From: Arcobacter sp. FWKO B
GTDB lineage: Bacteria > Campylobacterota > Campylobacteria > Campylobacterales > Arcobacteraceae
Length of the DNA stretch: 64,000 nucleotides
Direction: 5' to 3'
NCBI RefSeq assembly: GCF_014844135.1
Contig: NZ_CP041403.1
Coordinates: forward strand, 1,798,001 to 1,862,000
Shown here: positions 3,153-61,489 of the stretch, piece by piece
How positions within the stretch are numbered: the stretch's first letter is position 1
Layout of the letters: each line of letters starts with the position of its first letter
Program-made: the position numbers and the translations under genes
Notes under the pieces: model-generated
The model's input: the letters and a program-made list of their open reading frames with translations, nothing else
The model's database searches: none
Told to the model about the DNA's origin: nothing

Positions 3153-4097
3153 TTAAAAAAATTTTTCTATTAAATCTCGTAATTCTTTTATATCAGTGAT
3201 ATAATTTACACTATTTCTAAAATCACTAGCTCCACTATATCCTTTAGAATAATCATGAAGATGTTTTCTAAACATTATAGCACCATAATCTCCATAAAAC
3301 TCAACCATTTTATCAAAATGTTCTAATATTACCTCTTTTTTTATAATATTATCTATATTTTCTAAATTATGTTTTATTTGATGAAAAATCCAAGGTTTAC
3401 CTATTGCACCACGACCTATCATTACCCCATCAGCACGAGTATGTTCTAAAACCCATTTTGCTTTTGCATAATCAATAATATCACCATTAGCTATTACTGG
3501 GATTTTGATACTTTCTTTGATAGCTTTTATAGCATCATAATCAACAGGAGCTTTATATGCTCCTTTTCTTGTTCTTCCATGAACCCATACAATATCAGCA
3601 CCAGCACCCTCAACAACTTTTGCAATTTCTACAGGTATTTTTTCATCAACACCAATTCTTATTTTTGCAGTTGTATATTTCTTTTTAGAATTTAGTTTTA
3701 TTGTACTTAGTATAAGTTCTAGTCTTTTTAAATCACCTAAAAGGTTTGAGCCACTTCCATGATTAAAAACCTTTGGAGCAGGGCATCCACAATTTAAATC
3801 GATTCCGTCAATTCCATCAATATCATTTAATATTTCAACAGCTTCTTTTATAACCTCTGGCTGGCTACCAGCTATTTGTACAATATATGGAGTTTCATTA
3901 GCTGACTTAGTAACCATTTTTAATGTTTTTTTTGAGTTGTGAACCAAAGCATTTGAGCTTATCATCTCACTTATGGTTATATCTGCACCAAATTTTTTGA
4001 CAACAGATCTAAATGGTAAATCGGTATAGCCAGCAAGTGGTGCAAGAACCATTAATGGATTTGAAAAATCTATAATATTAAAGTTGTTGTTTTCCAC
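3153..4097 (-). CDS. dus: tRNA-dihydrouridine synthase
   Basis: 314 residues with the DusB-type FMN TIM barrel: APLAGYTDLPFR near the N-terminus, the catalytic cysteine motif LNCGCPAPKV, and the FMN-phosphate binding run GVMIGRGAIGKPW. It reduces particular uridines in tRNA to dihydrouridine. The start is GTG at 4097 with AGGA 8 bases upstream. The exact Dus subfamily, and so the tRNA positions modified, cannot be fixed from the sequence. Confidence 0.92.
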   Translation of the reverse strand: MENNNFNIIDFSNPLMVLAPLAGYTDLPFRSVVKKFGADITISEMISSNALVHNSKKTLKMVTKSANETPYIVQIAGSQPEVIKEAVEILNDIDGIDGIDLNCGCPAPKVFNHGSGSNLLGDLKRLELILSTIKLNSKKKYTTAKIRIGVDEKIPVEIAKVVEGAGADIVWVHGRTRKGAYKAPVDYDAIKAIKESIKIPVIANGDIIDYAKAKWVLEHTRADGVMIGRGAIGKPWIFHQIKHNLENIDNIIKKEVILEHFDKMVEFYGDYGAIMFRKHLHDYSKGYSGASDFRNSVNYITDIKELRDLIEKFF

Positions 4098-4119
4098 TTG
4101 CTTTATCCTACCATTATTG

Positions 4120-5136
4120 TTAGTTTAAACAAAGGCTATCTAGTCTGTAATGTTTACCATTGTTTTTTAAATCTAATAGTGCTTTAAATGGAATATATTC
4201 ATCATTTGAGCTATTTTGTAAAATTTCTCTTACACTATCAAGCATTTCGTATTCAAATAAGATATATAAATATGCACTTGTTGCATCTTCGTTTTTAGTG
4301 CTTAAATCTTCAAATAATTTTATAATCTCTTCAGGTCCAAAAGTCTTTTTGTATATTTTTACAAGTTTTAAATAATCAGCTTTTGTAAAATTTAAACCTA
4401 AAACAATGTTCTTAATTTCATCACGAGTTAGTGAAAAACTCTCTCTTTGTTCACTATCTTTTGTGAATAGTGAAAAAGCCAATTGAGTATCTAATTTTAC
4501 CAAATCAAGATTTTTTTTGATAGTAGTAATTGATTTATTTTTTATCATTGATGATACTGCTTTATCAATAACTTTTTGTGTATAGTTAGAACTTTTCTTG
4601 ATAACATCCAAACAAAAATCACCATCAACACCCAATTTATTTATAAGATTTTTTTCCATCAGAGGATTTGTATTTGGAAGTTTTAACTCTTTTGAAGATA
4701 CATACTCACCAGCTTCAATCTTCATAATTAATGAAACTAAATCTTTTAAGTCTTTGTCTTGACTACTAAAATCTGCATTACTTGGAGCAATTTCAAGTTG
4801 CGTAAGAGTATTTGCAATACCCTTTGCTTCAGTTGTCTTAAAAGGCAGAGTAATATCTTTTTTTTGAACTCTCGCTTTTAATAATTCAGCAATTTTTTCG
4901 AAATCTTTCTCATAGGCTTTTTTTGAAAAGTAGCTTTTTGTACCATAAAAAATTATATGTAAAAAAGACAATACAAAAAATACAACTAAAGGTAATACTA
5001 CCCAAACTGCAATTGGCAGTACGAAGCCATTGTCAAAAATTGAAACTCTAAAATCATTAGAGTTTAAACTAAATACATAGCCAGCTACTAAAATAATTAA
5101 TAGCAATGAAAAAAAGAAATATTTTTTTAAGCCCAT
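4120..5136 (-). CDS. conserved-looking membrane protein of unknown function
   Basis: 338 residues, not recognised. Two hydrophobic segments lie at the N-terminus (about 5-24 and 37-64); the rest is a soluble, charged, probably helical domain with one late Cys (LDSLCLN). By topology the large domain probably faces the cytoplasm. It lies between dksA (12 bases away) and dus (22 bases away), so it belongs to the housekeeping operon. The position suggests a core rather than acquired gene. No catalytic motif is visible and I assign no function. Confidence 0.75.
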   Translation of the reverse strand: MGLKKYFFFSLLLIILVAGYVFSLNSNDFRVSIFDNGFVLPIAVWVVLPLVVFFVLSFLHIIFYGTKSYFSKKAYEKDFEKIAELLKARVQKKDITLPFKTTEAKGIANTLTQLEIAPSNADFSSQDKDLKDLVSLIMKIEAGEYVSSKELKLPNTNPLMEKNLINKLGVDGDFCLDVIKKSSNYTQKVIDKAVSSMIKNKSITTIKKNLDLVKLDTQLAFSLFTKDSEQRESFSLTRDEIKNIVLGLNFTKADYLKLVKIYKKTFGPEEIIKLFEDLSTKNEDATSAYLYILFEYEMLDSVREILQNSSNDEYIPFKALLDLKNNGKHYRLDSLCLN

Positions 5137-5148
5137 GAGACTAACTCC

Positions 5149-5520
5149 TTATTTGTTTTTTGGTTGCTCTTTGTTTTGTTCGTATAATTCACGACAAGGA
5201 GTACAAAATTTTGCAAATGGTTTTGCTTTTAGACGACCTAGTGATATCACTTCATCACACATTTCACAAATACCATAAGTACCATCTTTTATTCTTTTGA
5301 TTGCATCTTCAATCTCTTTAAGTTCAGCAACTTGTTGATTTATTATAAGACCTTCCGTATAGCTATCGCTACTAACTTCAGCATAGTCAAACTCGTCATT
5401 AACTTCTTGATTTTTCAATAAGTCAAGGTTTTCTTTACTGTTATTTATATTTGATTCAATAAGCTCTTTTCTTTCAAGCAAGATAACTTTCATTTCCTCA
5501 ATCTGTTTCTTATTTGGCAC
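5149..5520 (-). CDS. dksA: DksA/TraR-family zinc-finger transcription factor
   Basis: 123 residues. A long N-terminal coiled coil (about 5-75) with paired acidic residues (NDEFDYAEV) is followed by a C4 zinc finger, CEMC and CTPC, separated by 17 residues. DksA proteins enter the RNA polymerase secondary channel and, with ppGpp, adjust transcription in the stringent response. The start is GTG at 5520 with GGGA 6 bases before; the next in-frame ATG would remove nine residues. A good promoter lies just upstream. Confidence 0.9.
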   Translation of the reverse strand: MPNKKQIEEMKVILLERKELIESNINNSKENLDLLKNQEVNDEFDYAEVSSDSYTEGLIINQQVAELKEIEDAIKRIKDGTYGICEMCDEVISLGRLKAKPFAKFCTPCRELYEQNKEQPKNK

Positions 5521-5549
5521 AACTATTCCCTTTTTTAAAAAATTGGAAC

Positions 5550-5555
5550 ATTATA
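5550..5555 (-). promoter_or_regulatory. -10 box upstream of dksA
   Basis: On the minus strand this reads TATAAT about 30 bases before the dksA start, preceded by T-tracts (a T8 run and TTTTTTAA) spaced roughly one helical turn apart, the sigma-70 promoter style of Campylobacterota that lacks a clear -35. It implies dksA and the downstream genes have their own promoter within the run from metK. Confidence 0.6.
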
Positions 5556-5654
5556 TTAAAAAATTACTAAAAAAAAGATAAAGTAGTTTAGGGTTTTTAA
5601 TTGATGGCTGATATGGGTAAAAATAGTTTTTAGATATTATCTTTTAGATTATAG

Positions 5655-7596: not shown

Positions 7597-8816
7597 TAAA
7601 GTAATTTTTTAAATATATCAACGCTATCTAGTTTTTCCCAAGGATAACTGCTTCTTCCAACTTGTCCATGTGCTGCCACATCTGCATATAAAAATGTATC
7701 ACTTGATGGTGCATCTAAATCGAATTTTTTTGTTATCCAATTTGGTGTAAGTGGGAAATTATCCATTACAAACTGTGATAATTTTTCATCACTTATTCCA
7801 TCAATTGCGGTATGGTTTGTATTTACCGTTATAGATACTGGCTTTGCAACACCAATAGCATAAGATATTTGTACTACTGCTTTTTTTGCAAGACCAGCTG
7901 CTACTATATTTTTTGCTATATATCTAGCTGCATAAAGTCCACTTCTATCTACTTTAGTATAATCTTTACTACTTTGTGCTCCACCACCAATAGGTGCATA
8001 TCCACCAAAACTATCAACGATTAGTTTTCTTCCCGTTAGTCCACTATCGTGTAAACTAGAGTGACTTACATATTTTCCTGTTGGGTTTATATGTATAATA
8101 CACTCATTTGGATTATATAGTTCTTTTGGTAAACCAGTTGTATCAATAAGACCTTTTATAAGGTTTCTAACAGTAACAATATCCATACTTGCAACACAAG
8201 GAGCTGATACAACTATTGTATGTATTTTCTGTGGATTTGCATTGTCAAAGTTTTCTTTTGTAATATAATCCATAGTAACTTGCGTTTTGATATCAACACC
8301 TAGTTCATTTGGATGTGATAGTGCATATTCATAAACTTTATCAGCTAACATTCTTGCGTAAGTGATTGCACTAGGCATAAAATCAGGTGTTTCACAGTCT
8401 GCATAACCAAACATGATACCTTGATCTCCTGCACCAGTTTCTCCGCCTTCTTGATCAACACCTTGGTTTATATCAGGGCTTTGTCTATTTAATAAAACTT
8501 GAACTTGTACATCTTCAGGGTGTAAACACTCTTCTTTTGTGAAATATTCATTTCCATTATAACCTATTTTTTTAAGAGCGTTAATTGCGATATTTTTATA
8601 ATCTTCTACACTTACATTTGCTTTTGTAGTAACTTCTCCACCTATTATAACATGCTTTCCAGCAACAAAAACCTCACTAGCAATTCTACTTTTGCTATCT
8701 TGCATTAACAATGCATCTACTATGCTATCAGCTATAATATCTGCACATTTATCAGGGTGACCTGGACTTACTACTTCACTTGTAAATAAATAAGAGTTCA
8801 CGGCGTTGTTTTCCAT
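7596..8816 (-). CDS. metK: S-adenosylmethionine synthetase, copy 1
   Basis: 406 residues from the chosen ATG. The family motifs GHPDKCADIIAD, GAGDQGIMFGYA and GGGAQSSKDYTKVDRSG are intact. It makes SAM from methionine and ATP. Its sequence resembles the Campylobacter-type enzyme and differs clearly from copy 2 at 33632-34792. ATG 8831 has GG directly against it, while ATG 8816 has AAGGATGGA upstream at normal spacing; the words around the two ATGs are a short duplication (ATGGAAAAC twice). I chose 8816. It heads the minus-strand run. Confidence 0.95.
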   Translation of the reverse strand: MENNAVNSYLFTSEVVSPGHPDKCADIIADSIVDALLMQDSKSRIASEVFVAGKHVIIGGEVTTKANVSVEDYKNIAINALKKIGYNGNEYFTKEECLHPEDVQVQVLLNRQSPDINQGVDQEGGETGAGDQGIMFGYADCETPDFMPSAITYARMLADKVYEYALSHPNELGVDIKTQVTMDYITKENFDNANPQKIHTIVVSAPCVASMDIVTVRNLIKGLIDTTGLPKELYNPNECIIHINPTGKYVSHSSLHDSGLTGRKLIVDSFGGYAPIGGGAQSSKDYTKVDRSGLYAARYIAKNIVAAGLAKKAVVQISYAIGVAKPVSITVNTNHTAIDGISDEKLSQFVMDNFPLTPNWITKKFDLDAPSSDTFLYADVAAHGQVGRSSYPWEKLDSVDIFKKLL

Positions 8817-8852
8817 TGATTTGTTTTCCATCCTTTTTTTAAATTGGAGCAG

Positions 8853-8858
8853 ATTATA
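8853..8858 (-). promoter_or_regulatory. -10 box upstream of metK copy 1
   Basis: Minus strand TATAAT about 37 bases before the chosen metK start, preceded by TTTTAAG and T-rich sequence in helical phase. It is the likely main promoter for the run of genes down to psd. Confidence 0.6.
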
Positions 8859-8939
8859 TTTAAAAAATACTTAAAAGTAGGTAATTTTATTCTTGATTAG
8901 GTACAATGAGGCTTATATTATTACTTTTAAGGATTGTTT

Positions 8940-9221
8940 ATGGAGTGGTTATTGTATATAGTTTTTTTTCTTATTGTATTATTTTGTATAGTGTTTTTTT
9001 TAAAGAAACATTACGAAGATAAAGCTAAGAATTTGGCTAGTTTGAAAAATGGGATTTGCCCAAATTGTGGTGCTAAATCTGACAAAGATGAAAGTGTTAT
9101 AGAATACAAATTGTTAAATAATGGTGGATGTAGCGGGGTAAGTGATGTTTTGTATACATGTATCAAGTGTGATAAAAGTTATTTTGCACAAGAAAGAATT
9201 AGCAGACCATCTTGTGGATAA
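8940..9221 (+). CDS. small membrane-anchored zinc-ribbon protein, unknown
   Basis: 93 residues from ATG 8940. A strong single TM helix (about 3-22) is followed by a small domain with CPNC and CIKC pairs 32 residues apart plus two further Cys (GGCSG and the terminal SCG). I do not recognise a named family. AAGGA lies 6 bases before this ATG; an in-frame TTG at 8934 would sit right on the ribosome site and is less likely. It is divergent from metK and convergent with glmS. A possible -10 (TACAAT) lies at 8902-8907. Confidence 0.7.
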   Translation: MEWLLYIVFFLIVLFCIVFFLKKHYEDKAKNLASLKNGICPNCGAKSDKDESVIEYKLLNNGGCSGVSDVLYTCIKCDKSYFAQERISRPSCG

Positions 9222-9250
9222 TAATTTGTTGAAACAAAGTTACAGCCAAA

Positions 9251-11056
9251 TCATTCAACTGTAACTGATTTGGCTAAATTTCTTGGCATATCCACATCAT
9301 TGCCAAGTCTTATTGAAATTTCTTGTGATAAAAGTTGAAGTGCTACAAGCATTTCAAAAAACTCAAGCATATAATGATCACACAAATTAGTTTTGATAAA
9401 ATCATCAGCAAGTTCAAAATTTAGCGGGCTTATTGCACAGATTGTACTATCTCTTGCACTTAGTTCTTCTACATTTGATTTGATTTTATCATAAAGTAGG
9501 TTTTGAGGCATAAGTGCAATAGTAAAAAGCTCAGGGTCGGCTAGAGCTATGGGTCCATGTTTCATCTCACCTGCTGGATACCCTTCTGCATGAAGATAAC
9601 TTATCTCTTTTAGTTTCAAAGCACCCTCTAGTGCAAGAGGATAAAACACATCTCTACCTATAAAGAAAAATCCATGACCATGAAGGTATCTTTTTGAAAG
9701 TCGTTTACACTTTTCATGTATAGACGAATCAATTTTTAGAACCCTTGGTACTTCTCTTAAAGTTCGTAATTCATTTTGTAATAAATTATTGTTAATAGAG
9801 TTTTTAATTTTACCTATGTAAAGTGATAGCATCCAAAGTACTAGAGTTTGTGTTGTAAATGCTTTTGTACTAGCTACCCCTTTTTCAATCCCCGCACGAG
9901 TTAGAAGTGTAACATCCGCAACTCTTGTAATTGAACTATTATCAACATTACAAATTGCTAATGTTTTAAGTCCACTATTTTTAGCCATTTTAAGTGCTTC
10001 TAATGTATCTGCTGTTTCACCACTTTGTGAAATTACAACAAACAAAGTGTTTTTATCTAATATAGGCTCTTTATACCTAAATTCACTTGCTATTTCAACC
10101 TCACATCTAATATTTCCAAGTCTTTGAAGAAGATAGCTTCCAGTTAATCCTGCATGATAGCTCGTTCCACATGCACAAATTTTGATATCCCTGATATCAT
10201 CAAAAAAATCTAGGCTAATTTCATCAAAACTTATTCCATTGTCTTTTATACGCCCCAACATACAATCACTTGCAACTTCACTTTGTTCGTATATCTCTTT
10301 TTCCATAAAAAATCTAAAACCATTTTTTTGAGCAAGTTGTTTTGAAGTTTGTAGTTTATTCCATTTAGTTGTATTGTTCGAGTAAAACGATATACCATTT
10401 TGATCTGCTTCACCAAATTCTCCATCTTCAAGATAAATCACTTCACTAGCATACCCGATTAAAGGTGCATCACTACTTGCAAAAAATATTTCATTTTGAG
10501 ATTTACCTATAATCATAGGTGAACCAGATTTTGCAAAAAATATTTTATCTTTATCAGCTTTTGTAATAAGTAAAATTGCATATGCTCCATGTAGAGCTTC
10601 TATAGTTTTACAAAAAGCTTCTTTTGTATTATTGGTAATTTTATGAAATTTTTCAAAAAGATGTACAATAACTTCAGTATCTGTTTGACTTAAAAATTCA
10701 ATACCTTGTGAAATTAGCTCATCTTTTAATTCTTTATAATTTTCTATAATTCCATTATGAACAACAAAAGAGTAAGCTCCTAAGTGGGGATGAGCATTTA
10801 TTTCAGTTGGTTTTCCATGTGTTGCCCATCTTGTATGACCAATACCAACAGGAGTTTCAAAACAGTTAGTACAATTTTGTGTAATTTTTTCTTCAAGATT
10901 GATAAGTTTTCCTACAGCTTTATAAGTTTCAATACCATCATCTCCAAGTAATGCTATTCCAGCACTATCATATCCTCTATATTCAAGCTCTTTTAATCCA
11001 TCTATTAAAAATTTTTTTGTATCATTTTTCCCAATATATCCAACTATTCCGCACAT
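9251..11056 (-). CDS. glmS: glutamine-fructose-6-phosphate aminotransferase (isomerizing)
   Basis: 601 residues, full length. Cys after the initiator Met (MCGIVGYIG) is the glutaminase nucleophile; GHTRWATHG and NGIIEN follow. The two SIS domains show CACGTSYHAG, SQSGETADT and, at the end, MPRNLAKSVTVE. GlmS makes glucosamine-6-phosphate for peptidoglycan and LPS. It follows the CBS/GGDEF/EAL gene by 14 bases on the minus strand. Confidence 0.97.
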   Translation of the reverse strand: MCGIVGYIGKNDTKKFLIDGLKELEYRGYDSAGIALLGDDGIETYKAVGKLINLEEKITQNCTNCFETPVGIGHTRWATHGKPTEINAHPHLGAYSFVVHNGIIENYKELKDELISQGIEFLSQTDTEVIVHLFEKFHKITNNTKEAFCKTIEALHGAYAILLITKADKDKIFFAKSGSPMIIGKSQNEIFFASSDAPLIGYASEVIYLEDGEFGEADQNGISFYSNNTTKWNKLQTSKQLAQKNGFRFFMEKEIYEQSEVASDCMLGRIKDNGISFDEISLDFFDDIRDIKICACGTSYHAGLTGSYLLQRLGNIRCEVEIASEFRYKEPILDKNTLFVVISQSGETADTLEALKMAKNSGLKTLAICNVDNSSITRVADVTLLTRAGIEKGVASTKAFTTQTLVLWMLSLYIGKIKNSINNNLLQNELRTLREVPRVLKIDSSIHEKCKRLSKRYLHGHGFFFIGRDVFYPLALEGALKLKEISYLHAEGYPAGEMKHGPIALADPELFTIALMPQNLLYDKIKSNVEELSARDSTICAISPLNFELADDFIKTNLCDHYMLEFFEMLVALQLLSQEISIRLGNDVDMPRNLAKSVTVE

Positions 11057-48700: not shown

Positions 48701-51000
48701 TCAAAAACCTAGCATCAAATTTAGAAGCAACAAATAGTATAAATATAGCTTCTAATAATAATATCAATATACAAAGTAGCAATCTCAATGCAGATGGAGA
48801 TATAAATATGGTTGCGAATGAAATAAATATTACGGCAGTAAATGATTTAATATACCAAGAACAACAGTTCTTTAGTAAAAAACCTTTTAGTAAAAAGACC
48901 CAAAAAGATATGAGTTATAAAGAAGAGGTAGTCTCTTCTAATATCATAGGTAAAAATATCATCATGCAATCAGGTAAAGATATAAATCTTGAAGCTGTAA
49001 ATATAAAAGCCCAAGAAGATAAAATAGCATATGCACAAGGAGATATAAATATAGTAGCAAAAGAGTATAAAGAAGGAGAACTTCATCAAACTTCTAAGTC
49101 TTCTTTTGGAGGGTTAATAAAAAGTGAATATAAATATGATAAAGATAACTTAAAAATAAAATCTACAGAAATAACAGCTGATAATATGATATTAGATGCA
49201 AAAGAGATTAATGTACAAGCATCAAGAATTAAAGCAAATGAAGTAGAAATATCAACTGAGATTTTAAATATGATTTCTAGTAAAGAAAGACTTTATGAAA
49301 ATGAGTATTCAAATAAAGGTGGTATTATAACAGCTACAATAGAAAATAAGGGACAAATAAAAGAAATAGTTATACCTGCTACTATAGAAGTAAATGATAG
49401 ACTAATTTTTAATAAAAAAGATATAACAGACCAACTAACAACCGATAATCTAATAAAAGTTTTGTCTAGTCAAGGAAACTTAAGTGAAGAACAGATAAAT
49501 CTAGTAAAACAAATAGCAAATGATAATGATTGGCATACAAAAACAACAACGCTTAGTGCAACAGGGGCACTAATAGTGCAAGCTATAGTTACATACTTTA
49601 CCGCAAGTGCAGGCTCAGGCTTGACTTCAAGTATCTCTAATGTAGCATTAAAAGCAGCAACAAATGCTGCAATACAATCAGTAATCAGCCAAATAACAGT
49701 ACAACTAGCAACTTCAGCAATCACAGGAAATAGCCTACAACTAGATGTGAATTCGATAGCTAAAGGTGCAGTAAGTGCAGGAGTAATGAGTTATGCAAGT
49801 TCAATGATAGATAGTTCCCTTAATCTAGAAAATCTAAAAGTAGCAAATATGAGCTACCCACAACAACTTCAACAAGGAATATCTAATACCGTAGTAAAAA
49901 GTGCCATTGATTCAGCTATATATGGAACAGATTTTAAAGATAGTCTAAAACTAGGACTTGTAACAAATGCTTCTAATCTAGGATTTAGAGCAGTAGGAGA
50001 CTATGAAGTAAATCAACTACAACAAGGTAATACATCTTGGGAAGATGGAAGTATAAATAAAACCATAACCCATTCCCTAATAGGAGGAACCATAGCCAAA
50101 CTTCAAGGAGAAGATTTCAAAACAGGAGCAGTAGCAGCAGGTACAAGAGAACTACTTTCTCCCCTTACAGTAAACTCATCCCAACAAACACAACTTTTAA
50201 CATCCCAACTAACAGGTATCTTAGTAGGAGGACTTAGCGGTGGAGATAGTGGAGCAAGTGTAGGATATAATATAGCAACAAGTGCAGAGATTTATAATAG
50301 ACAACTTCATAAAGATGAGATACAATTTATAAGAGATAATGCAAAAAGATATGCAGAGAAATATAACCTAACAGAAAGAGAAGCTATAAAAGAGCTTTAT
50401 AATACAGCAATGTATATAAATGATAAAGAGAGTCAAAGGAATATATCAATAATGACAGAGGAACAAAAAGTATTGGGACTGATAGCAGTTAATGGGATGG
50501 ATGAAATAAACTTTATAAGAGCAGTTGAGTTTTTATTTAGTGAATCAGCAGGTAAAATGATTGTAGATACTTATAAAGAACAGATGAGCCCACAACCAAT
50601 GTTTACATCAACACTATCTCAATTTATAAATAATGGATATACTATGGATAGTACAATAGGATTAGTGGATAGTTCAGCCACATTTGTACCAACAGTAAAA
50701 GTAGGACAAACTTTTTACAACACAGGGAAAGTAGTAACACCTTATGTAGTAAGGCAAACTGGACAGGTTTATGATGATGTGACATTGGGGATTATTAGTC
50801 AAGGTAATAAGGTGGCTCCTAATTTGACTAATAAATATATTTTAGACCCTTATAATTCATTGAAAATTATAGGGGGAATTGAAGTAATAAATGATATTTT
50901 TAATGAAAGTAATCCTATTCCAAGTACAGTTAAAGGTGCAATTGGTTCATTAATTAAAAATATTGATGATAAAATTAAAGAAGTAAATAATGCTGAATAA
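45733..51000 (+). CDS. CdiA/FhaB-like two-partner-secretion exoprotein with toxic tail
   Basis: 1755 residues. Signal peptide (1-24, h-region IAIFVSFILV), TPS domain with the NPNL motif (near residue 95) and NPNGI (near 136), then filamentous-haemagglutinin type beta-helix repeats to about 1270, a hydrophobic DUF637-like pretoxin segment (about 1275-1370), and a pretoxin end YNRQLHKDE (1521-1529). The last 226 residues are the variable tail. Such proteins are exported by a TpsB partner and deliver the tail into neighbours on contact. No exporter gene is in the window. It overlaps the following candidate immunity ORF by 11 bases. The tail shows no catalytic motif; its end recurs in the ORF at 52823. 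Confidence 0.92.
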   Translation: MKLKQSIAIFVSFILVAEQTALYAGGIEVDAQAPNANKATLLNSPNNVPIINIVTPNSSGLSHNKFTNFNVENKGLILNNSKVITDTQLAGYISYNPNLTGNEAKLILNEVTSTNKTLLQGYTEVAGKSADVIIANPNGISVNGGGFINTPNATLTTGTPMLNDGVLQGFDVSKGNIIIDGNGFNGNNIDKVNLYAKALEINAKIYANELNVVTGENNISQDGTVTSKNKSGSGISIDSTLLGGIYANTITLKSTDKGIGVNLPPEVFAQNSLSLNVNGDISFSKTKANTITAKSNEGSININKDVYSKQTTLIAEDNIVINNQGALNSENSIYLKSNKLLNDGIIFSGLNEDKTINDIGIVILDNDITINNAQINASNNVTLSTRELTNNGLLYAGNDLLISSDNLTNNRTIFSANNMYLYTKNTLKNNKASDIFAMNNLLFAADILNNKTDLIENNSANIHAFNGDISFYASNLNNLTVDLVIDEGSISEPYGAFAYSGYFYNETVNQGIAKYCGPASRWCGTHSEDYYKGSFTSKTETASSYTPSNIVSGNDMFFYINDTLNNEYSLIQANNNILISTNVLNNKSRDLKKNITESYFINTNANRKFYSMGWNTLNTTEIIGSVPSTIQSGGSIIGNISRVTNGEINENIVLPVRNESSIPNVTIKIPDNDYGLFIKTKDTKAQYLIETNPKFTLYKNFVGSDYFFEKIGFSLDDNIKRLGDGFYETTLITDSIFKQIGKRFIDKDILDENIQYKVLMDNAIQAQKDLQLAPGITLTKEQINMLKQDIVWMEESIIDGQRVLIPIVYFANLDSLRIVGGQIIANKDIDLEIDVIQNSGILVADNNIRIDASDSIMNYGGVIKANEKLTLEAKNTIRNTSGEIEANEIDLKSGDIINETFSKKITDKTAYYEETKTLFGITSKIEAKKDLNIIAENDFINVGSTLKANNINILANNVDIVSLQDERDFFGGDGFRTGDSSKSYTKEKSIKNLASNLEATNSINIASNNNINIQSSNLNADGDINMVANEINITAVNDLIYQEQQFFSKKPFSKKTQKDMSYKEEVVSSNIIGKNIIMQSGKDINLEAVNIKAQEDKIAYAQGDINIVAKEYKEGELHQTSKSSFGGLIKSEYKYDKDNLKIKSTEITADNMILDAKEINVQASRIKANEVEISTEILNMISSKERLYENEYSNKGGIITATIENKGQIKEIVIPATIEVNDRLIFNKKDITDQLTTDNLIKVLSSQGNLSEEQINLVKQIANDNDWHTKTTTLSATGALIVQAIVTYFTASAGSGLTSSISNVALKAATNAAIQSVISQITVQLATSAITGNSLQLDVNSIAKGAVSAGVMSYASSMIDSSLNLENLKVANMSYPQQLQQGISNTVVKSAIDSAIYGTDFKDSLKLGLVTNASNLGFRAVGDYEVNQLQQGNTSWEDGSINKTITHSLIGGTIAKLQGEDFKTGAVAAGTRELLSPLTVNSSQQTQLLTSQLTGILVGGLSGGDSGASVGYNIATSAEIYNRQLHKDEIQFIRDNAKRYAEKYNLTEREAIKELYNTAMYINDKESQRNISIMTEEQKVLGLIAVNGMDEINFIRAVEFLFSESAGKMIVDTYKEQMSPQPMFTSTLSQFINNGYTMDSTIGLVDSSATFVPTVKVGQTFYNTGKVVTPYVVRQTGQVYDDVTLGIISQGNKVAPNLTNKYILDPYNSLKIIGGIEVINDIFNESNPIPSTVKGAIGSLIKNIDDKIKEVNNAE
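50055..50322 (+). repeat. repeat A, copy 1 (pretoxin end in the main gene)
   Basis: 268 bases nearly identical to 51348-51615 (offset 1293), coding NKT..THSLIGGTIAKLQGEDF to YNRQLHKDEI. The first 77 bases also recur at 53779-53855. It is the homology tract through which an orphan tail could replace the main one. Confidence 0.9.
50658..50913 (+). repeat. repeat B, copy 1 (tail end)
   Basis: 256 bases nearly identical to 53086-53341, coding GLVDSS.TFVPTVKVGQTFYN through LKIIGGIE, residues about 1642-1727 of the exoprotein. Confidence 0.9.
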
Positions 51001-51331
51001 TAAATTTGGTTGGTATTTAATTTCATGTATTTTTTTATTTGAAGGTGTAGCTTCGTTCTTAGGATATAAAGTTTACTTTAAATATTCGGGTGGGTGGAAA
51101 AATGTAGGATATGATTATTCATTATATATAACTATTGCAGGATTAATAATAGGTTACTATGCATATAATTTAAAAGAAAAACCACAAAAACACACCAAAT
51201 GCCCAACCTGCAAAGAAACATTCAATTACAATGAATTAGAAAATGGTAAGTGTCCTTATTGTAAAGATGTAGATACCGTAGATATTGAAGAGTATTATAA
51301 ACAATATCCTAAAGAAAGAGATGATAAATGA
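50990..51331 (+). CDS. candidate immunity protein 1: two TM helices plus zinc ribbon
   Basis: 113 residues. Two TM helices (about 5-27 and 40-60) are followed by a cytoplasmic ribbon with CPTC and CPYC and an acidic-basic end YPKERDDK. It overlaps the exoprotein stop by 11 bases and the next orphan ORF by ATGA, the place where CDI immunity genes lie. The C-terminal half is almost identical to the ORF at 53430, the TM half is not. I infer immunity from position; no named family was recognised. Confidence 0.75.
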   Translation: MLNNKFGWYLISCIFLFEGVASFLGYKVYFKYSGGWKNVGYDYSLYITIAGLIIGYYAYNLKEKPQKHTKCPTCKETFNYNELENGKCPYCKDVDTVDIEEYYKQYPKERDDK

Positions 51332-51424
51332 GTGTAAATTTAATCTTAAATAAAACCCTAACCCATTCCCTAATAGGAGGAACCATAGCCAAACTTCAAG
51401 GAGAAGATTTCATCACAGGAGCAG
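51161..51424 (+). repeat. repeat C, copy 1 (immunity ribbon plus orphan start)
   Basis: 264 bases closely matching 53592-53855 (offset 2431). It covers the zinc-ribbon half of candidate immunity 1 and the first 32 codons of the following orphan ORF, so it spans a gene junction. Confidence 0.9.
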
Positions 51425-52335
51425 TAGCAGCAGGTACAAGAGAACTTATCTCTCCCCTTACAGTAAACTCATCCCAACAAACACAACTTTTAACATCCCA
51501 ACTAACAGGTATCTTAGTAGGTGGACTTAGCGGTGGAGATGATGGAGCAAGTGTAGGATATAATATAGCAACAAGTGCAGAGATTTATAATAGACAACTT
51601 CATAAAGATGAGATAGCATTACAAAAAACAAAGAATGCACAAGATTTAAAAAAAGCTCTTGCCCAAACAAGTAATTTTTCAGAAGATGATATAGATAATA
51701 TTTTTGCAATGACACAAAAAGCAATGGTAAATGAAATGGATGATTATATGTTAAATTTACAATTAAATACAACATATAAAGATAATAAAGATGAAATAAG
51801 ATTCGTAGTTAATGAAGCAAAACAATACTTTGCAGAAGAAGCTAGAGGACAAGTATATCTTGATAGAAATACAATGCAATTAGTTCCAATGATGGATACA
51901 AATAATTATAATAGTTCAATTTATAATCCAAATAGTAATTCTCAAATAGTAAAAAGTACAACAGGTTCACTTATAAGAACAGGACTAGGATTAGTACCAA
52001 ATCCATATATTGCGATACCTACTTGGGCAATTGATACTGCAATAAATATAAATAATAATGATTTTTCCAATACTTTAAATAGTGTTCAAAATTTATCTCC
52101 TAATTTAGTTGGAAATCCTTGGGCAAATCAAAATTTACAAAAAATAGGAGCAGGAATAAGTATATTTAATACAGTGGAATCTTTAGATAGTTACTCTAAT
52201 AATATTGAGAAATTAGAAATACAAAGAGATAACATAAATACTAAAGAGTTACAAAATATTTATAATAATATTAATCCTGTAGAAATAAAAAAGAGTGCAA
52301 CTCCTCAAATAAACTTCATAAAGGTTAATCCATGA
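51328..52335 (+). CDS. orphan CdiA tail module 2
   Basis: 335 residues starting MSVNLILNKTLTHS, with no signal or TPS domain. Residues 8-95 repeat the main pretoxin up to YNRQLHKDE (87-95) almost exactly; residues 96-335 are a different tail. That tail has a hydrophobic stretch (LIRTGLGLVPNPYIAIPTWAI) and no Cys. It is coupled to the ORF before and after by ATGA overlaps. As it stands it could not be exported; it would need recombination into the main gene. Confidence 0.85.
   Translation: MSVNLILNKTLTHSLIGGTIAKLQGEDFITGAVAAGTRELISPLTVNSSQQTQLLTSQLTGILVGGLSGGDDGASVGYNIATSAEIYNRQLHKDEIALQKTKNAQDLKKALAQTSNFSEDDIDNIFAMTQKAMVNEMDDYMLNLQLNTTYKDNKDEIRFVVNEAKQYFAEEARGQVYLDRNTMQLVPMMDTNNYNSSIYNPNSNSQIVKSTTGSLIRTGLGLVPNPYIAIPTWAIDTAININNNDFSNTLNSVQNLSPNLVGNPWANQNLQKIGAGISIFNTVESLDSYSNNIEKLEIQRDNINTKELQNIYNNINPVEIKKSATPQINFIKVNP
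51348..51615 (+). repeat. repeat A, copy 2 (pretoxin end in the orphan)
   Basis: Counterpart of 50055-50322; differences are scattered single bases (for example AAAACAGG changed to ATCACAGG). Confidence 0.9.
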
Positions 52336-52823
52336 TAAAAAAAATTTGGAATAGCTATATTGAATGGTTATTGAGTTATATTCATCGTGATAAAGAGTAT
52401 AAATGGAGATTAACATTTATGGAAATATCTTATATTTTAATAGCATTTGTCATATGCTATATTGTTTTTTATTTTTTAATAGGAACAGAATTTGTTTTTG
52501 GTATTTTTGTAGCGTCAATTGGTTATGGAAGATTGATATTTGACCGCATTATGATTTTTAATGATAAAGAATATCCTTATGATAAAAGGTATACACCATT
52601 TTTGCGGTTTATATCTTTAACAAGTGTTGGAGTTGTAACTGCGATATTAACCTTTATGTTAATCAAAGACGCCCATGAAAATAACACAGATGTTCAAAAA
52701 CTTATAGAAAGAAATTATAGTGATGCAAAAGTTGAGGATAATGGTAGTGAAACAAGTAGTTCAAATAATATTTATAACTTTAATAATAAGTTACCAATGA
52801 AAATAAAATTAGGAAATGAGTAA
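52332..52823 (+). CDS. candidate immunity protein 2: polytopic membrane protein
   Basis: 163 residues with about three TM helices (near 29-50, 52-70 and 92-111) and a polar Ser/Asn-rich tail. It overlaps orphan module 2 by ATGA and is the likely partner of that tail. Not similar to candidate immunity 1, 3 or 4. Its stop shares one base with the next ATG. Confidence 0.7.
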   Translation: MIKKIWNSYIEWLLSYIHRDKEYKWRLTFMEISYILIAFVICYIVFYFLIGTEFVFGIFVASIGYGRLIFDRIMIFNDKEYPYDKRYTPFLRFISLTSVGVVTAILTFMLIKDAHENNTDVQKLIERNYSDAKVEDNGSETSSSNNIYNFNNKLPMKIKLGNE

Positions 52824-53440
52824 TGGGGACAATAGCAAATATTATGGCAGATAAAAAAACAAAAGATAATACCCCAGCCTTAAGTGAAGAACAAATACAA
52901 GCAGGATATATTTCAACATCAAAATATACAAAAGCTCAAATAGAAGAGGCATATAACTATCTAATAAGTAGTTCACAAGGATTATATTTCACAGATGTAT
53001 ATAAAGAAAATATGACACCACAACCATACTTCACATCAACCCAAGAACAATATAATAACTCCAACTATAACCCAAATAGTACTGTAGGATTAGTGGATAG
53101 TTCAACTACATTTGTACCAACAGTAAAAGTAGGACAAACTTTTTACAACACAGGGAAAGTAGTAACACCTTATGTAGTAAGGCAAACTGGACAGGTTTAT
53201 GATGATGTGACATTGGGGATTATTAGTCAAGGTAATAATGTGGCTCCTAGTTTGACTAATAAATATATTTTAGACCCTTATAATTCATTGAAAATTATTG
53301 GTGGAATAGAGATTGCTAATGATGTATTAAATGAAAGTATGCCTGCAACTACAAGAACAGGTATATTCTATAATATGTATAATAACTATAACGATTTATT
53401 AAACAATATAAATCAATATTCAAGTAAAAATGATGACTAA
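52823..53440 (+). CDS. tail module 3 without pretoxin
   Basis: 205 residues. Residues 88-173 nearly repeat the end of the main exoprotein tail (repeat B), and the stretch before it (ENMTPQPYFTST against EQMSPQPMFTST) is related but diverged. There is no pretoxin, so it is either a 5'-truncated orphan or a free-standing small toxin. The start ATGGGG follows the previous stop by overlap and has GAG nearby. It overlaps its candidate immunity gene by 11 bases, as module 1 does. Confidence 0.7.
   Translation: MGTIANIMADKKTKDNTPALSEEQIQAGYISTSKYTKAQIEEAYNYLISSSQGLYFTDVYKENMTPQPYFTSTQEQYNNSNYNPNSTVGLVDSSTTFVPTVKVGQTFYNTGKVVTPYVVRQTGQVYDDVTLGIISQGNNVAPSLTNKYILDPYNSLKIIGGIEIANDVLNESMPATTRTGIFYNMYNNYNDLLNNINQYSSKNDD
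53086..53341 (+). repeat. repeat B, copy 2
   Basis: Counterpart of 50658-50913 with about a dozen substitutions, mostly toward the ends. Confidence 0.9.
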
Positions 53441-53762
53441 AAGAAATATATTCTTTTTGATTGCTATTATAAATATAATAGAAGGATTTTTAGGGCTAAT
53501 ATTTGGAAAAGTTTTTATAAGACATTGGCATAATGTTACTTTAATCGAAACATTATTTTGGTTTCTTTCAGGAATTGTATTTCTTTATTTGGCATATAAT
53601 CTAAAAGAAAAACCACAAAAACACAGCAAATGCCCAATCTGCAAAGAAACATTCAACCATCACGAACTAGAAAATGGTAAGTGTCCTTATTGTAAAGATG
53701 TAGATACCGTAGATATTGAAGAGTATTATAAAGAATATCCCAAAGAAAGAGATGATAAATGA
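53430..53762 (+). CDS. candidate immunity protein 3: two TM helices plus zinc ribbon
   Basis: 110 residues. It has the same plan as candidate immunity 1: two TM helices (about 6-25 and 36-57) and a ribbon with CPIC and CPYC. From YNLKEKPQKH onward it is nearly identical to candidate 1; the TM half differs, as does the first part of the matching tail. It is coupled by 11 bases to tail 3 and by ATGA to orphan 4. Confidence 0.75.
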   Translation: MMTKRNIFFLIAIINIIEGFLGLIFGKVFIRHWHNVTLIETLFWFLSGIVFLYLAYNLKEKPQKHSKCPICKETFNHHELENGKCPYCKDVDTVDIEEYYKEYPKERDDK

Positions 53763-53855
53763 GTGTAAATTTAATCTTAAATAAAACCCTAACCCCTTCC
53801 CTAATAGGAGGAACCATAGCCAAACTTCAAGGAGAAGATTTCAAAACAGGAGCAG
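53592..53855 (+). repeat. repeat C, copy 2
   Basis: Counterpart of 51161-51424, spanning the end of candidate immunity 3 and the start of orphan 4. Confidence 0.9.
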
Positions 53856-54298
53856 GTGTAGCTACAGGAATATCAGCACATTCAAACTATGATAAATATG
53901 ACGGAGCAGAGTATGCAACCCATGTAGCCACAGATGGAACTATTTCTTATCTAGTAGGGAAATACATCCCAGCAGGACAAAACATTGCAAGCAGCTTGGG
54001 TTATGGTGCTTTGGGCGGGGGATTGGGCGGAGGTTTAAGTGAATTTAGTCATCAGTATTTGGATACTAAAGTATTTGGCAATCAAGAGAATATGGATAAA
54101 TCCAAAATCTTCCTCAACAGTACCATCGAAGGAACCGCAGGAGCATTAGGGAAGTTTTACAAAAATATGGGCGAGATGATGGAGTTTAAACCTGTCATTA
54201 ACTATGGCATGGATATAGGCGCTTCCCAGAGCTTTAAACCTATAATGGAATCCCAACGAAATAGTTTCGATAGTAAAACGAAACAAGAGACTGAATAA
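53759..54298 (+). CDS. orphan CdiA tail module 4
   Basis: 179 residues starting MSVNLILNKTLTPS. About 32 residues of pretoxin are shared, then it departs at GEDFKTGAG without reaching YNRQLHKDE. The rest contains a Gly-rich hydrophobic run (GYGALGGGLGGGLSEF). Base use changes here: the stretch from about 53950 is visibly richer in G and C than its neighbours. It shares one base with the following membrane-protein gene. Confidence 0.75.
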   Translation: MSVNLILNKTLTPSLIGGTIAKLQGEDFKTGAGVATGISAHSNYDKYDGAEYATHVATDGTISYLVGKYIPAGQNIASSLGYGALGGGLGGGLSEFSHQYLDTKVFGNQENMDKSKIFLNSTIEGTAGALGKFYKNMGEMMEFKPVINYGMDIGASQSFKPIMESQRNSFDSKTKQETE

Positions 54299-55125
54299 TG
54301 AAAGTCTTGTTTAATAGTTTCATTGAGTTGATTTTATATTTAGGATTCATTGGCGCCATATGGGGCTCCTTTAGAAAAGGTTTTTACGATGGGATTCTCT
54401 ATGGACTTATCCATAAAAAAGCAGGAACAGCTATCGGTTCGGTTCGGTTCAGACCCTATCTTTATGCAGGTCAAGCCATCTGCAGAGGATGGGGGCTTAT
54501 AGGAAGTCCTGGGGTTGTTTTTTTAATAATTGCATATATGATACATTTATCACATCAAGACACCAAGGACTACTTCCACTCCATAGGTCACTACTACATC
54601 ATCTACATCATAGGCTACAGCATCATCCTTGGGTATCTCTACTTTGGCTACCGATGGATAAAAGAGGGATATATAGATGGAATCAAAAACAAAAAAACAA
54701 AAACCTACTACCATTTACAAAACGGAGAAAAGTACTATCTTCATAGTGCCAAAGAAAAAGAGAGGACTATCTCTAAACACAAATATTTCAGAGGTCAAAA
54801 GGCAGTAAAAACAGGGATTGTTAGAGTGGGTCTTGGAAGTGCGTATGTTTTAGTGGCATTGTTGCTTTTTTTAGATAGGGATTACTATATGGGAGATGCC
54901 ACCAAGTCTATGTATCCCAATGCCTTTGAGATAGCCAAAGAGTACTATCAAACACATTACCCAAAACAAGAGAAGAAAGAGCAAAGTAAACAAGAGGTAA
55001 AAAAAGATACAACTCAAATAAAAGAAGAAGCAATAGAAACACTAAGACTCAAAGATTCAAATGAAAAGTTTTATAAATCATTTGAAGAGTTTATGTTAAA
55101 TAAAGAAGAAGAGAATCTAAGATGA
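54298..55125 (+). CDS. candidate immunity protein 4: polytopic membrane protein
   Basis: 275 residues with four hydrophobic segments (near 7-30, 63-80, 92-116 and 174-194) and a charged Lys/Glu-rich C-terminal third. It follows orphan module 4 by a 1-base overlap. More G/C than its neighbours, including a CGGTT triplet repeat near 54437. Immunity role is inferred from position and topology. Confidence 0.7.
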   Translation: MKVLFNSFIELILYLGFIGAIWGSFRKGFYDGILYGLIHKKAGTAIGSVRFRPYLYAGQAICRGWGLIGSPGVVFLIIAYMIHLSHQDTKDYFHSIGHYYIIYIIGYSIILGYLYFGYRWIKEGYIDGIKNKKTKTYYHLQNGEKYYLHSAKEKERTISKHKYFRGQKAVKTGIVRVGLGSAYVLVALLLFLDRDYYMGDATKSMYPNAFEIAKEYYQTHYPKQEKKEQSKQEVKKDTTQIKEEAIETLRLKDSNEKFYKSFEEFMLNKEEENLR

Positions 55126-59727: not shown

Positions 59728-60050
59728 AAAGGTATAATAGATAATAGCTTGGTTTTTACCAAGAGGAAAGTCCGAGCTGCGGTGAGGCAAGGTTTCATTT
59801 AACAAATGACTAGAGTAATCTAAGGGATAGTGCAACAGAAAGTAAACAGCCACTTTTGTGGTGATGGTGAAACGGTGGGGTAAGAGCCCACCAGTGCTTT
59901 GAGTAATCTTAGTAGCTATGTAAACCCAACCTGCAGCAAGAAGAGAATGGTAAAAGCTTCACAATTTGGCTCTTCGCAAGAGTATCTAAGTGATTAGATA
60001 CCTAGATAAATTATTATCAAATACAGAACTCGGCTTACAATTATACCTTT
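59728..60050 (+). ncRNA. rnpB: RNase P RNA (bacterial class A)
   Basis: P1 is formed by AAAGGTATAAT (59728-59738) and ATTATACCTTT (60040-60050). Conserved regions are seen in order: GAGGAAAGTCCG, AGAAAGTAAACAGCC, GGTGAAACGGTGGGGTAAG, and near the end ACAGAACTCGGCTTAC. It is the catalytic RNA that trims tRNA 5' ends. Possible promoters are TATAAT at 59692-59697 or TACAAT at 59714-59719. The remaining 104 bases before the next gene hold nothing clear. Confidence 0.95.
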
Positions 60051-60153
60051 TACTTAAGTTATTGTTTGAAAACCAATGCCAATTCAATTTTAATCAAATT
60101 TTATTTATGTATTGTAATAAATCTAAACAAACCACAAAAAAAGGTTATTGTAA

Positions 60154-61200
60154 ATGACTAAAGTATTAATTTTGAGTAACTCAAAATCTCAAAAAAATGA
60201 AATCTCTCAACTTCTTAATGGATATAATAGATTTGATATCACAATAACTGGCTGTTTAGATGGATTAAGTCTAATTGAGAACAATCAAACTTTTGATATA
60301 TGTATCTCTTTTTCTGATAATGAGAGTATAAAATATCGTGAAAAAATTTACAATACTTTAACAAAATATAATCCAACACAAAAAATAATAGAAATACAAA
60401 ATGAAGATTCAAAATGCCTTTTTGATTATGAATGTAAAGAGTGTTTAAATAGAAATATTTTAACACTGAGAAAACCACTAAATATAGATACTTTGATAGG
60501 ATTTATTGATAATTTTGAAATAAAAGTGTGTCAAGTTTTGTCAAAAAACAATATTACTGCAAATCTAAATCATATTTATTTTTTTAAACATCTTGATGAT
60601 TCTTGGCTAGCAAAGTTAAAGTCACACAGTATACTCAAAAAATACAATTCTGGAAATATTGTTTTTTATAGCAATGAAAAAATAGAGTATTTTTACTTTT
60701 TAATAAGTGGAAATGTAAAACAGTTTCATATTCAAAATGATGGAACAATAACCATTATAAAAAAAATAGACTTACCATCTTTTATTTGTGAGTATGAATC
60801 TTTTTCAAATGATTATTTTACATCAAATGTAGAAGCTGTAAGTGATAGCTCAATATTATGTATAGAAAAATTGTTTTTTATTGATATGATTAAAAATGAT
60901 CCCCAATTATCATTTTTGATGTTTAGTTCTTTATCAAAAAATGTTGTACAATTACAAAATAATACTATTAGTAATGCATTAACACAAGCACATTTTAAAG
61001 TAGCTTTAAAACTTTACGAAAAGCCATGTATTTTGAAATATACTAGGAAAAAAGAGCTTGCAGATGAGTTGAATATAGCACAAGAAACACTTTCAAGAGC
61101 ATTAAAAAAATTAAAAGAGCTTGAAATATTAGATGCAAAAAATGAGATAATTGATTTTGATAAACTTGAGGAACTGATATTTAGCTTTAGTGACTTGTAA
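60154..61200 (+). CDS. CRP/FNR-type regulator with degenerate receiver domain
   Basis: 348 residues. Residues 1-120 have a receiver-like pattern (MTKVLILSNS, TFDICISFSDN, ILTLRKPLNIDTL) but lack the acidic pair, and the phospho-acceptor position is Phe53. Between strands 4 and 5 lies a cluster Cys88-x5-Cys94-x2-Cys97. A cyclic-nucleotide-type beta barrel (about 150-265) and a Crp winged helix with ELADELNIAQETLSRALKKL follow. It is probably a transcription factor sensing redox or metal rather than phosphate; that is inference. AAGG lies 9 bases before ATG. Confidence 0.88.
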   Translation: MTKVLILSNSKSQKNEISQLLNGYNRFDITITGCLDGLSLIENNQTFDICISFSDNESIKYREKIYNTLTKYNPTQKIIEIQNEDSKCLFDYECKECLNRNILTLRKPLNIDTLIGFIDNFEIKVCQVLSKNNITANLNHIYFFKHLDDSWLAKLKSHSILKKYNSGNIVFYSNEKIEYFYFLISGNVKQFHIQNDGTITIIKKIDLPSFICEYESFSNDYFTSNVEAVSDSSILCIEKLFFIDMIKNDPQLSFLMFSSLSKNVVQLQNNTISNALTQAHFKVALKLYEKPCILKYTRKKELADELNIAQETLSRALKKLKELEILDAKNEIIDFDKLEELIFSFSDL

Positions 61201-61219: not shown

Positions 61220-61247
61220 GGTGGAGTTTATTGATATCAACTCCACC
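61220..61247. terminator. hairpin between convergent genes
   Basis: GGTGGAGTT (61220-61228) and AACTCCACC (61239-61247), a perfect 9-bp stem, followed on the plus strand by TTATCTTTTTAGTTTTTT. It probably ends the CRP-type gene transcript. Confidence 0.75.
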
Positions 61248-61270
61248 AATTATCTTTTTAGTTTTTTAAT

Positions 61271-61489
61271 TTATTGTTCTGCTGATAAACACTCTTCAAA
61301 TTTTTTGTCACACTCTTCTTCACATTTTTCTATTTCTTCTTGTGGTAAGAGTTCACATTTTGTTTGACAATTATAAAAATCTTCCTCACACTGACTAAAT
61401 AATTCATCAGATATAAACTGCTCTTCATACAGCTCATTTGAGATTAAAAAACTAGATGCTATAAGCATACTAAAAAGATATTTTTTCAA
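61271..61489 (-). CDS. small secreted twin-CX3C protein
   Basis: 72 residues. Start is TTG at 61489 with AGGAG 6 bases upstream, giving signal peptide MKKYLFSMLIASSFLISN. The mature part is very acidic, with six Cys in mirror order: C34-x6-C41-x3-C45-x10-C56-x3-C60-x6-C67. This fits a helical hairpin stapled by up to three disulfides in the periplasm. No family recognised. Confidence 0.75.
   Translation of the reverse strand: MKKYLFSMLIASSFLISNELYEEQFISDELFSQCEEDFYNCQTKCELLPQEEIEKCEEECDKKFEECLSAEQ

Follow-up and report, generated by a model that had tools for sequence, protein, structure and literature searches.

A CRP-type regulator with a receiver-like N-terminal domain and a conserved cysteine cluster in Arcobacter sp. 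FWKO B

The regulator gene, its domains and its surroundings

Within the window, i.e., the whole stretch of 64,000 nucleotides of Arcobacter sp. FWKO B DNA analysed here, positions 60154–61200 of the forward strand hold an intact open reading frame that starts with ATG and encodes a regulator of 348 amino acids, in which a pseudo-receiver with a cysteine cluster is joined to a CRP-type module. The receiver-like N-terminal domain comprises residues 1–126 (60154–60531, forward strand). It is followed by a cNMP_binding domain (residues 162–249, 60637–60900, forward strand; Pfam PF00027, 46.2 bits at a cut-off of 27.5, E = 4.5e-12) and a HTH_Crp_2 domain (residues 298–341, 61045–61176, forward strand; Pfam PF13545, 31.0 bits at a cut-off of 27, E = 2.5e-7), which is the order of domains that defines the CRP/FNR superfamily. 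The recognition helix within HTH_Crp_2, as read from the sequence, is ETLSR (residues 311–315). Ahead of residue 162, no Pfam model matched at E ≤ 1, and none of the receiver models of NCBIfam and Pfam matched the N-terminal domain, for which a single weak and unrelated NCBIfam match was obtained (E = 0.0034).

The initial annotation had drawn attention to the arrangement C88-x5-C94-x2-C97, which is indeed present in the sequence. The three codons (60415–60417, 60433–60435 and 60442–60444, forward strand) lie in a cysteine segment of residues 83–101 (60400–60456, forward strand). A further cysteine, C126 (60529–60531, forward strand), is located in the final turns of the predicted helix α5. 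The complete set of cysteines in the protein comprises positions 34, 50, 88, 94, 97, 126, 212, 236 and 292.

FNR, a member of the same superfamily, binds its iron-sulfur cluster through N-terminal cysteines that lie directly ahead of the β-roll, together with one cysteine inside the roll. The window protein resembles FNR in its CRP-family module, in a cysteine cluster that lies N-terminal to this module, and in the recognition helix, as ETLSR presumably corresponds to the FNR motif E-T-x-S-R. It differs from FNR in that the four conserved cysteines reside in a separate, receiver-derived domain, while the CRP part contains only C212, C236 and C292, in agreement with the earlier remark that FNR-type factors carry their ligands at other positions. 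The NCBIfam models also kept a distance, with 21 bits for Fnr (cut-off 228) and 28.8 bits for CRP (cut-off 266).

By sequence, the nearest solved relatives of the CRP module are the cyclic-nucleotide-binding proteins 3h3z and 3fx3 (E about 1e-8) and DNR (3dkw, E = 3.6e-7). The genome encodes four cNMP-binding proteins, including one in a frame of 643 amino acids. The ETLSR helix occurs in the window protein and two paralogues, which are the three read of the four, and an N-terminal cysteine cluster is absent from both of these paralogues. The closest-scoring paralogue adjoins a gene for a hemerythrin-domain protein, and the second shares its strand with napA, which is 1.6 kb away with one gene between them. 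These neighbourhoods weakly point to an ancestry of the CRP module in anaerobic respiration or nitrosative stress. NnrS, which had been read by eye as a paralogue neighbour, was dropped as neither Pfam nor NCBIfam gave a match. A scan of the window for FNR boxes (TTGAT-N4-ATCAA, up to two mismatches) was uninformative, with 132 matches where 112 were expected, a number reached by 4 of 100 shuffles.

Directly upstream of the regulator gene lies an RNase P RNA of class A (59729–60053, forward strand; Rfam, 258 bits). The regulator gene is also preceded by a lolA-like gene and followed by genes that encode an LPG-synthase-like protein, a GNAT protein and HPF; none of these gives a hint of the function of the regulator. 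By eye, a hairpin at 61220–61250 of the forward strand, GGTGGAGTT...AACTCCACC followed by T runs, may represent the terminator of the regulator gene. Convergent to the latter, the reverse strand carries a cysteine-rich open reading frame of 65 amino acids (61271–61468; C-x6-C-x3-C-x10-C-x3-C-x6-C), which had no match in Pfam and has, by eye, a signal-like start upstream. Elsewhere in the window, at 50000–54300, open reading frames with a common stretch like LIGGTIAKLQGEDF (three near-repeats) were seen by eye to alternate with small membrane proteins, a layout that resembles an array in which a large secreted protein has its C-terminal modules and immunity modules.

A family of receiver-like proteins with conserved cysteines

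A search with the N-terminal domain among 200 relatives identified one fused copy, in genome G002 (an Arcobacter nitrofigilis metagenome-assembled genome, isolate SulCav_AS07-7), and several small proteins with the same cysteine segment. Another locus comes from Epsilonproteobacteria bacterium UBA4036. From these relatives, the profiles A1 and A2 were built and run on 397 genomes of the phylum and on 104 genomes of the taxonomic family. The latter run yielded 50 places in 33 genomes at E ≤ 1.7e-16, the places that followed (E ≥ 1.3e-10) not being opened individually, and in the former, which scored up to ten candidates per genome, at least 19 genomes had a place at E ≤ 2.6e-14. Up to five copies per genome (G011) occur within the window's family of bacteria. 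Only one of the 50 places, that of the window, lies in an open frame of more than 244 amino acids, and the fusion to a CRP module is thus an exception; the broken fused copy of G002, found by other searches, is not among the 50.

Taken from all fetched loci, 60 open reading frames scored at E < 1e-12, and removal of one plain receiver (L118) left 59 distinct receiver-like proteins in Campylobacterota, the phylum searched. The family has neither a Pfam nor an NCBIfam model of its own, and 58 of its members are not fused. In this set the window protein has 348 amino acids and the others have 115–206 as called, some being shortened by contig ends or the choice of start. Several stand-alone members of 190–205 amino acids (e.g., L124, 1254–1835) carry an additional C-terminal stretch of 60–70 residues that appears similar by eye, and Pfam gave only weak matches, located on this stretch, for ten full stand-alone members. 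A protein search of plasmids with one stand-alone member gave no match; with the window protein, it returned 243 records, none of which covered 80%, and the 10 listed match the CRP part only.

The cluster cysteines are conserved in the family. At the positions of C94 and C97, a cysteine is present in all 59 members, and at that of C126 in 56 (the remainder being one Tyr and two gaps). The C88 column holds a cysteine in 41 of 59 members and Tyr (10), Asn (3), Ser (2), Pro, Val or Ala (1 each) in the other 18, so that a site of four cysteines is not universal and the core consists of three. No further column contains a cysteine in more than 9 of 59. A lack of conservation in close homologues had been named as the result that would speak against the cluster; all four cysteines are, however, encoded in the only other fused copy detected, that of G002, and they are kept in the mostly stand-alone family.

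As the family profile itself included the cysteine columns, a control profile free of the cluster cysteines was made (A7; residues 1–83 only, 22 rows). Across the 104 genomes, the best 46 places of A7 (E ≤ 4.2e-11; 21 of them training rows of A7 and 25 not) all coincided with places found by the family profile; the next places begin at E = 3.0e-9 and were left unopened. At E ≤ 1e-7, A7 missed four of the 50 family places, two of which are single-domain members of the subclade of the window protein. When A7 was applied to the 2354 open reading frames of the fetched loci, the top 49 (22 training rows, 27 not) all had a CxxC after strand 4. The first without CxxC appeared at rank 50, and below it family members and ordinary receivers were intermixed; among the 78 frames listed, the two single-domain sister proteins of the window protein took ranks 67 and 76, and rank 78 went to the G002 piece. 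Since these loci had largely been fetched by family searches, the run over the 104 genomes is the stronger test. The control and the conservation counts indicate that the cluster is not a chance arrangement.

No common partner gene emerged from the 36 family loci given (two of them printed without neighbours), and the neighbours were varied and mostly not related to redox or metals. In two genomes of genus g8 (G010 and G027), a stand-alone gene lies near nifE and nifN; an HMM check of G010 placed NifN above its cut-off and NifE below it (490 versus 505 bits). At locus L132, the stand-alone cysteine-cluster receiver (4992–5585) is situated in a nif region between a nifE-like gene (3483–4832) and nifN (8072–9358), together with genes that by eye are SulP-like and Usp-like, and the G027 locus (L106) is alike. 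Stand-alone cysteine-cluster receivers are also found in two of the four genomes of the window's genus, G002 and G001 (L125, 3474–3890, and L156, 1501–1914), and that of G002 adjoins genes that by eye resemble ftsA and ftsZ.

Probable receiver ancestry and loss of the phosphorylation site

Several lines of evidence relate the N-terminal domain to receivers. Pfam PF00072 matched 17 of 33 family domains at E ≤ 0.01, the domain of the window protein not being among them, and the family profile matched CheY-type receivers in the PDB (E about 1e-8). When the AF2 model of the window protein was submitted to Foldseek, receivers appeared near the top, with a best E of 1.2e-3 (CosR) and none at ≤ 0.001, much of the model being poor. 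The model comprises five strands, in line with the receiver-like strands read earlier from the sequence: β1 (2–7), α1, β2 (27–32), α2, β3 (49–54), α3 and β4 (77–82) are followed by the cysteine segment with a short helix (95–100), β5 (102–106) and α5 (111–131). The mean pLDDT per ten residues is 72–88 for residues 1–80, 40–55 for residues 81–130 and low across most of the CRP part.

A full helix α4 is absent from this model at residues 83–101, where confidence is low. The model of a stand-alone relative likewise displays five strands, no full α4 at residues 81–99 and a short helix at 92–96; both models were built on thin alignments (7 and 4 rows), with low confidence over the cysteine segment. 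In the alignment, the region from strand 4 to the K-P of strand 5 is occupied by helix α4 in ordinary receivers and by the cysteine segment in the family. Judged by alignment and models, the cysteine segment is thus what takes the place of α4. The initial annotation had described the cluster as an insert ahead of strand 5; the segment is not, however, accompanied by a normal α4, and C126 had been overlooked as a fourth cysteine.

In the window protein, the residues of the receiver active site are lost with the exception of the lysine of strand 5. The column of the acidic strand-1 residue, Asp in 46 of 59 family members (5 gaps), is S8, confirming that the acidic residue is absent. The phospho-Asp of strand 3 is likewise missing, as had been proposed, although the replacement by F53 applies to the gap-free reading only and the family alignment places S52 at this position; 47 of 59 members have the Asp here (2 gaps). 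Q82 is found where 41 of 59 members have the strand-4 Ser, while K107 retains the strand-5 Lys (45 of 59). The full set, with an acidic residue in strand 1, Asp in strand 3, Ser/Thr and Lys, is present in 21 of 59 members, and by these counts phosphorylation may still take place in many of the stand-alone proteins. The N-terminal domain of the regulator probably descends from a receiver of the two-component type, and its phosphorylation site is lost.

In the tree, the window protein and the G002 copy were grouped (support 99/97), and this pair was joined by two single-domain proteins from G034 and G125 (support 97/93). Within this subclade the strand-3 Asp is present in none of the four proteins and all four cysteines are present in each, the G002 copy being represented here by two separate open pieces. 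That four cysteines were kept after the phosphorylation site had been lost is the strongest indication that they probably are the functional part.

CxxC pairs are common zinc ligands, and the site could accordingly be a purely structural one, in which Zn2+ bound to the cysteines merely holds the loop that lacks α4 and any sensing occurs elsewhere, e.g., by a ligand in the cNMP pocket or by protein contact. The variable fourth ligand would suit zinc as well as an iron-sulfur cluster, and the strand-3 Asp, mostly kept by the stand-alone members, leaves room for signalling by phosphorylation there. A subclade that has no phosphorylation site yet retains four cysteines, however, is easier to reconcile with a site that has a function than with a mere support of an inactive domain, and we regard a solely structural role as somewhat unlikely.

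A possible metal switch and the state of the fusion

The cysteine cluster is likely to be a metal or iron-sulfur sensor, while the metal, the signal and the targets are matters that we infer. We consider it rather probable that the protein acts as a one-component regulator, in which a four-cysteine metal or [4Fe-4S] site in place of α4 steers the CRP module. The site would be formed by the conserved residues C88, C94, C97 and C126; in the receiver topology, strand 5 begins at the edge where α5 ends, so that C94, C97 and C126 should be able to meet. It may bind a metal, most likely as a [4Fe-4S] cluster or Zn2+. Since some ten residues separate C126 from the CRP module that follows, α5 would be fixed or freed at its end when the site is occupied or oxidized, which in turn could alter the dimer arrangement and the DNA binding of the module. 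Genes of anaerobic respiration or nitrosative stress, reached through FNR-type sites, might be the targets, as weakly suggested by the ETLSR helix and the neighbourhoods of the paralogues. If the metal site is real, a phospho-switch domain would have been converted into a metal switch.

Two receiver-derived regulators, CemR, whose output domain is not of the CRP type, and RitR, whose output domain is of the OmpR type, lend themselves to comparison. CemR stands for the atypical response regulators HP1021, Cj1608 and Abu0127 of Campylobacteria, of which HP1021 is described as a redox switch with cysteine-dependent Zn2+ binding, in which oxidation lowers the affinity for DNA and only C27 is conserved among homologues (PMC8266642; PMC11334517). 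By description, the window protein shares with CemR the phylum and the nature of an orphan receiver-derived regulator, and the cysteine-dependent Zn2+ binding of HP1021 is a further point of likeness. It differs in having four conserved cysteines as opposed to one, and the term CxxC is absent from the main text of the HP1021 paper (PMC8266642). RitR of streptococci is portrayed as an aspartate-less receiver with a sensing cysteine, C128, between the receiver and the DNA-binding domain (PMC5965902). The phospho-Asp is lost in both proteins; RitR is described with a single peroxide-reactive thiol in its linker helix and no cysteine cluster is named in the passages on it (PMC5965902), in contrast to the four conserved cysteines found here. 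The pseudo-receivers of the cyanobacterial proteins CikA and KaiA are described as not phosphorylated and as serving as redox-linked quinone sensors (PMC13421787). These clock proteins are thus alike as receivers that sense without phosphorylation and differ in that they bind quinone, while the window protein has a cysteine site.

Such examples also raise a metal-free alternative, in which oxidation of C88, C94, C97 and C126 would act as a thiol-disulfide switch that alters oligomerization and DNA binding. Precedents among receiver-derived proteins are C128 of RitR (PMC5965902), the position of which is similar to that of C126, and the cyanobacterial regulators RpaA, RpaB and Rre1, presented as thiol switches with conserved cysteines in their receivers (PMC9321951). 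Three or four cysteines that are kept jointly and with CxxC spacing, however, exceed the need of a switch of one or two cysteines, making this explanation unlikely. Among the records listed by literature searches, no title or abstract opening dealt with this cysteine-cluster receiver family, and the passages on the known systems above describe no CxxC-based cluster replacing α4. As far as these searches go, the family is therefore a new form of putative receiver-derived redox or metal regulators. A broader, more tentative possibility is that it constitutes a new class of iron-sulfur sensors: receivers of Campylobacterota would have been turned into cluster-binding switches, with α4 replaced by C-x5-C-x2-C and the cysteine at the end of α5 as fourth ligand, mostly as free proteins and, in this genus, with one joined to a CRP module to give an FNR-like regulator made of unrelated parts.

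Within the genus, the fused copy of G002, the only other one found, is 44% identical to the window protein over residues 21–107. It contains about seven frame changes at or near homopolymer runs. On the same contig, the frames of two neighbouring genes stay open although they contain 8 and 10 such runs, and decay of the fused copy is thus likelier than sequencing error. G003 holds a CRP piece with 44% identity over residues 138–247, located near a contig end, upstream of which no N-terminal domain was found in three frames. In G001, CRP paralogues and one stand-alone cysteine-cluster receiver were seen and no fused copy was found. The fusion is therefore rare and possibly dispensable. The frameshifted copy of G002 and the lack of a fused copy in G001 and G003 would also be expected if the N-terminal domain were a degenerate passenger, i.e., a lineage-specific fusion that is heading for decay and lacks a function of its own. 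We consider this very unlikely, however, as all 348 codons of the window copy are uninterrupted and its differences from the G002 copy fall preferentially on codon position 3 (positions 1/2/3: 41/31/54 and 9/6/14), the pattern that protein-level selection acting until lately should leave.
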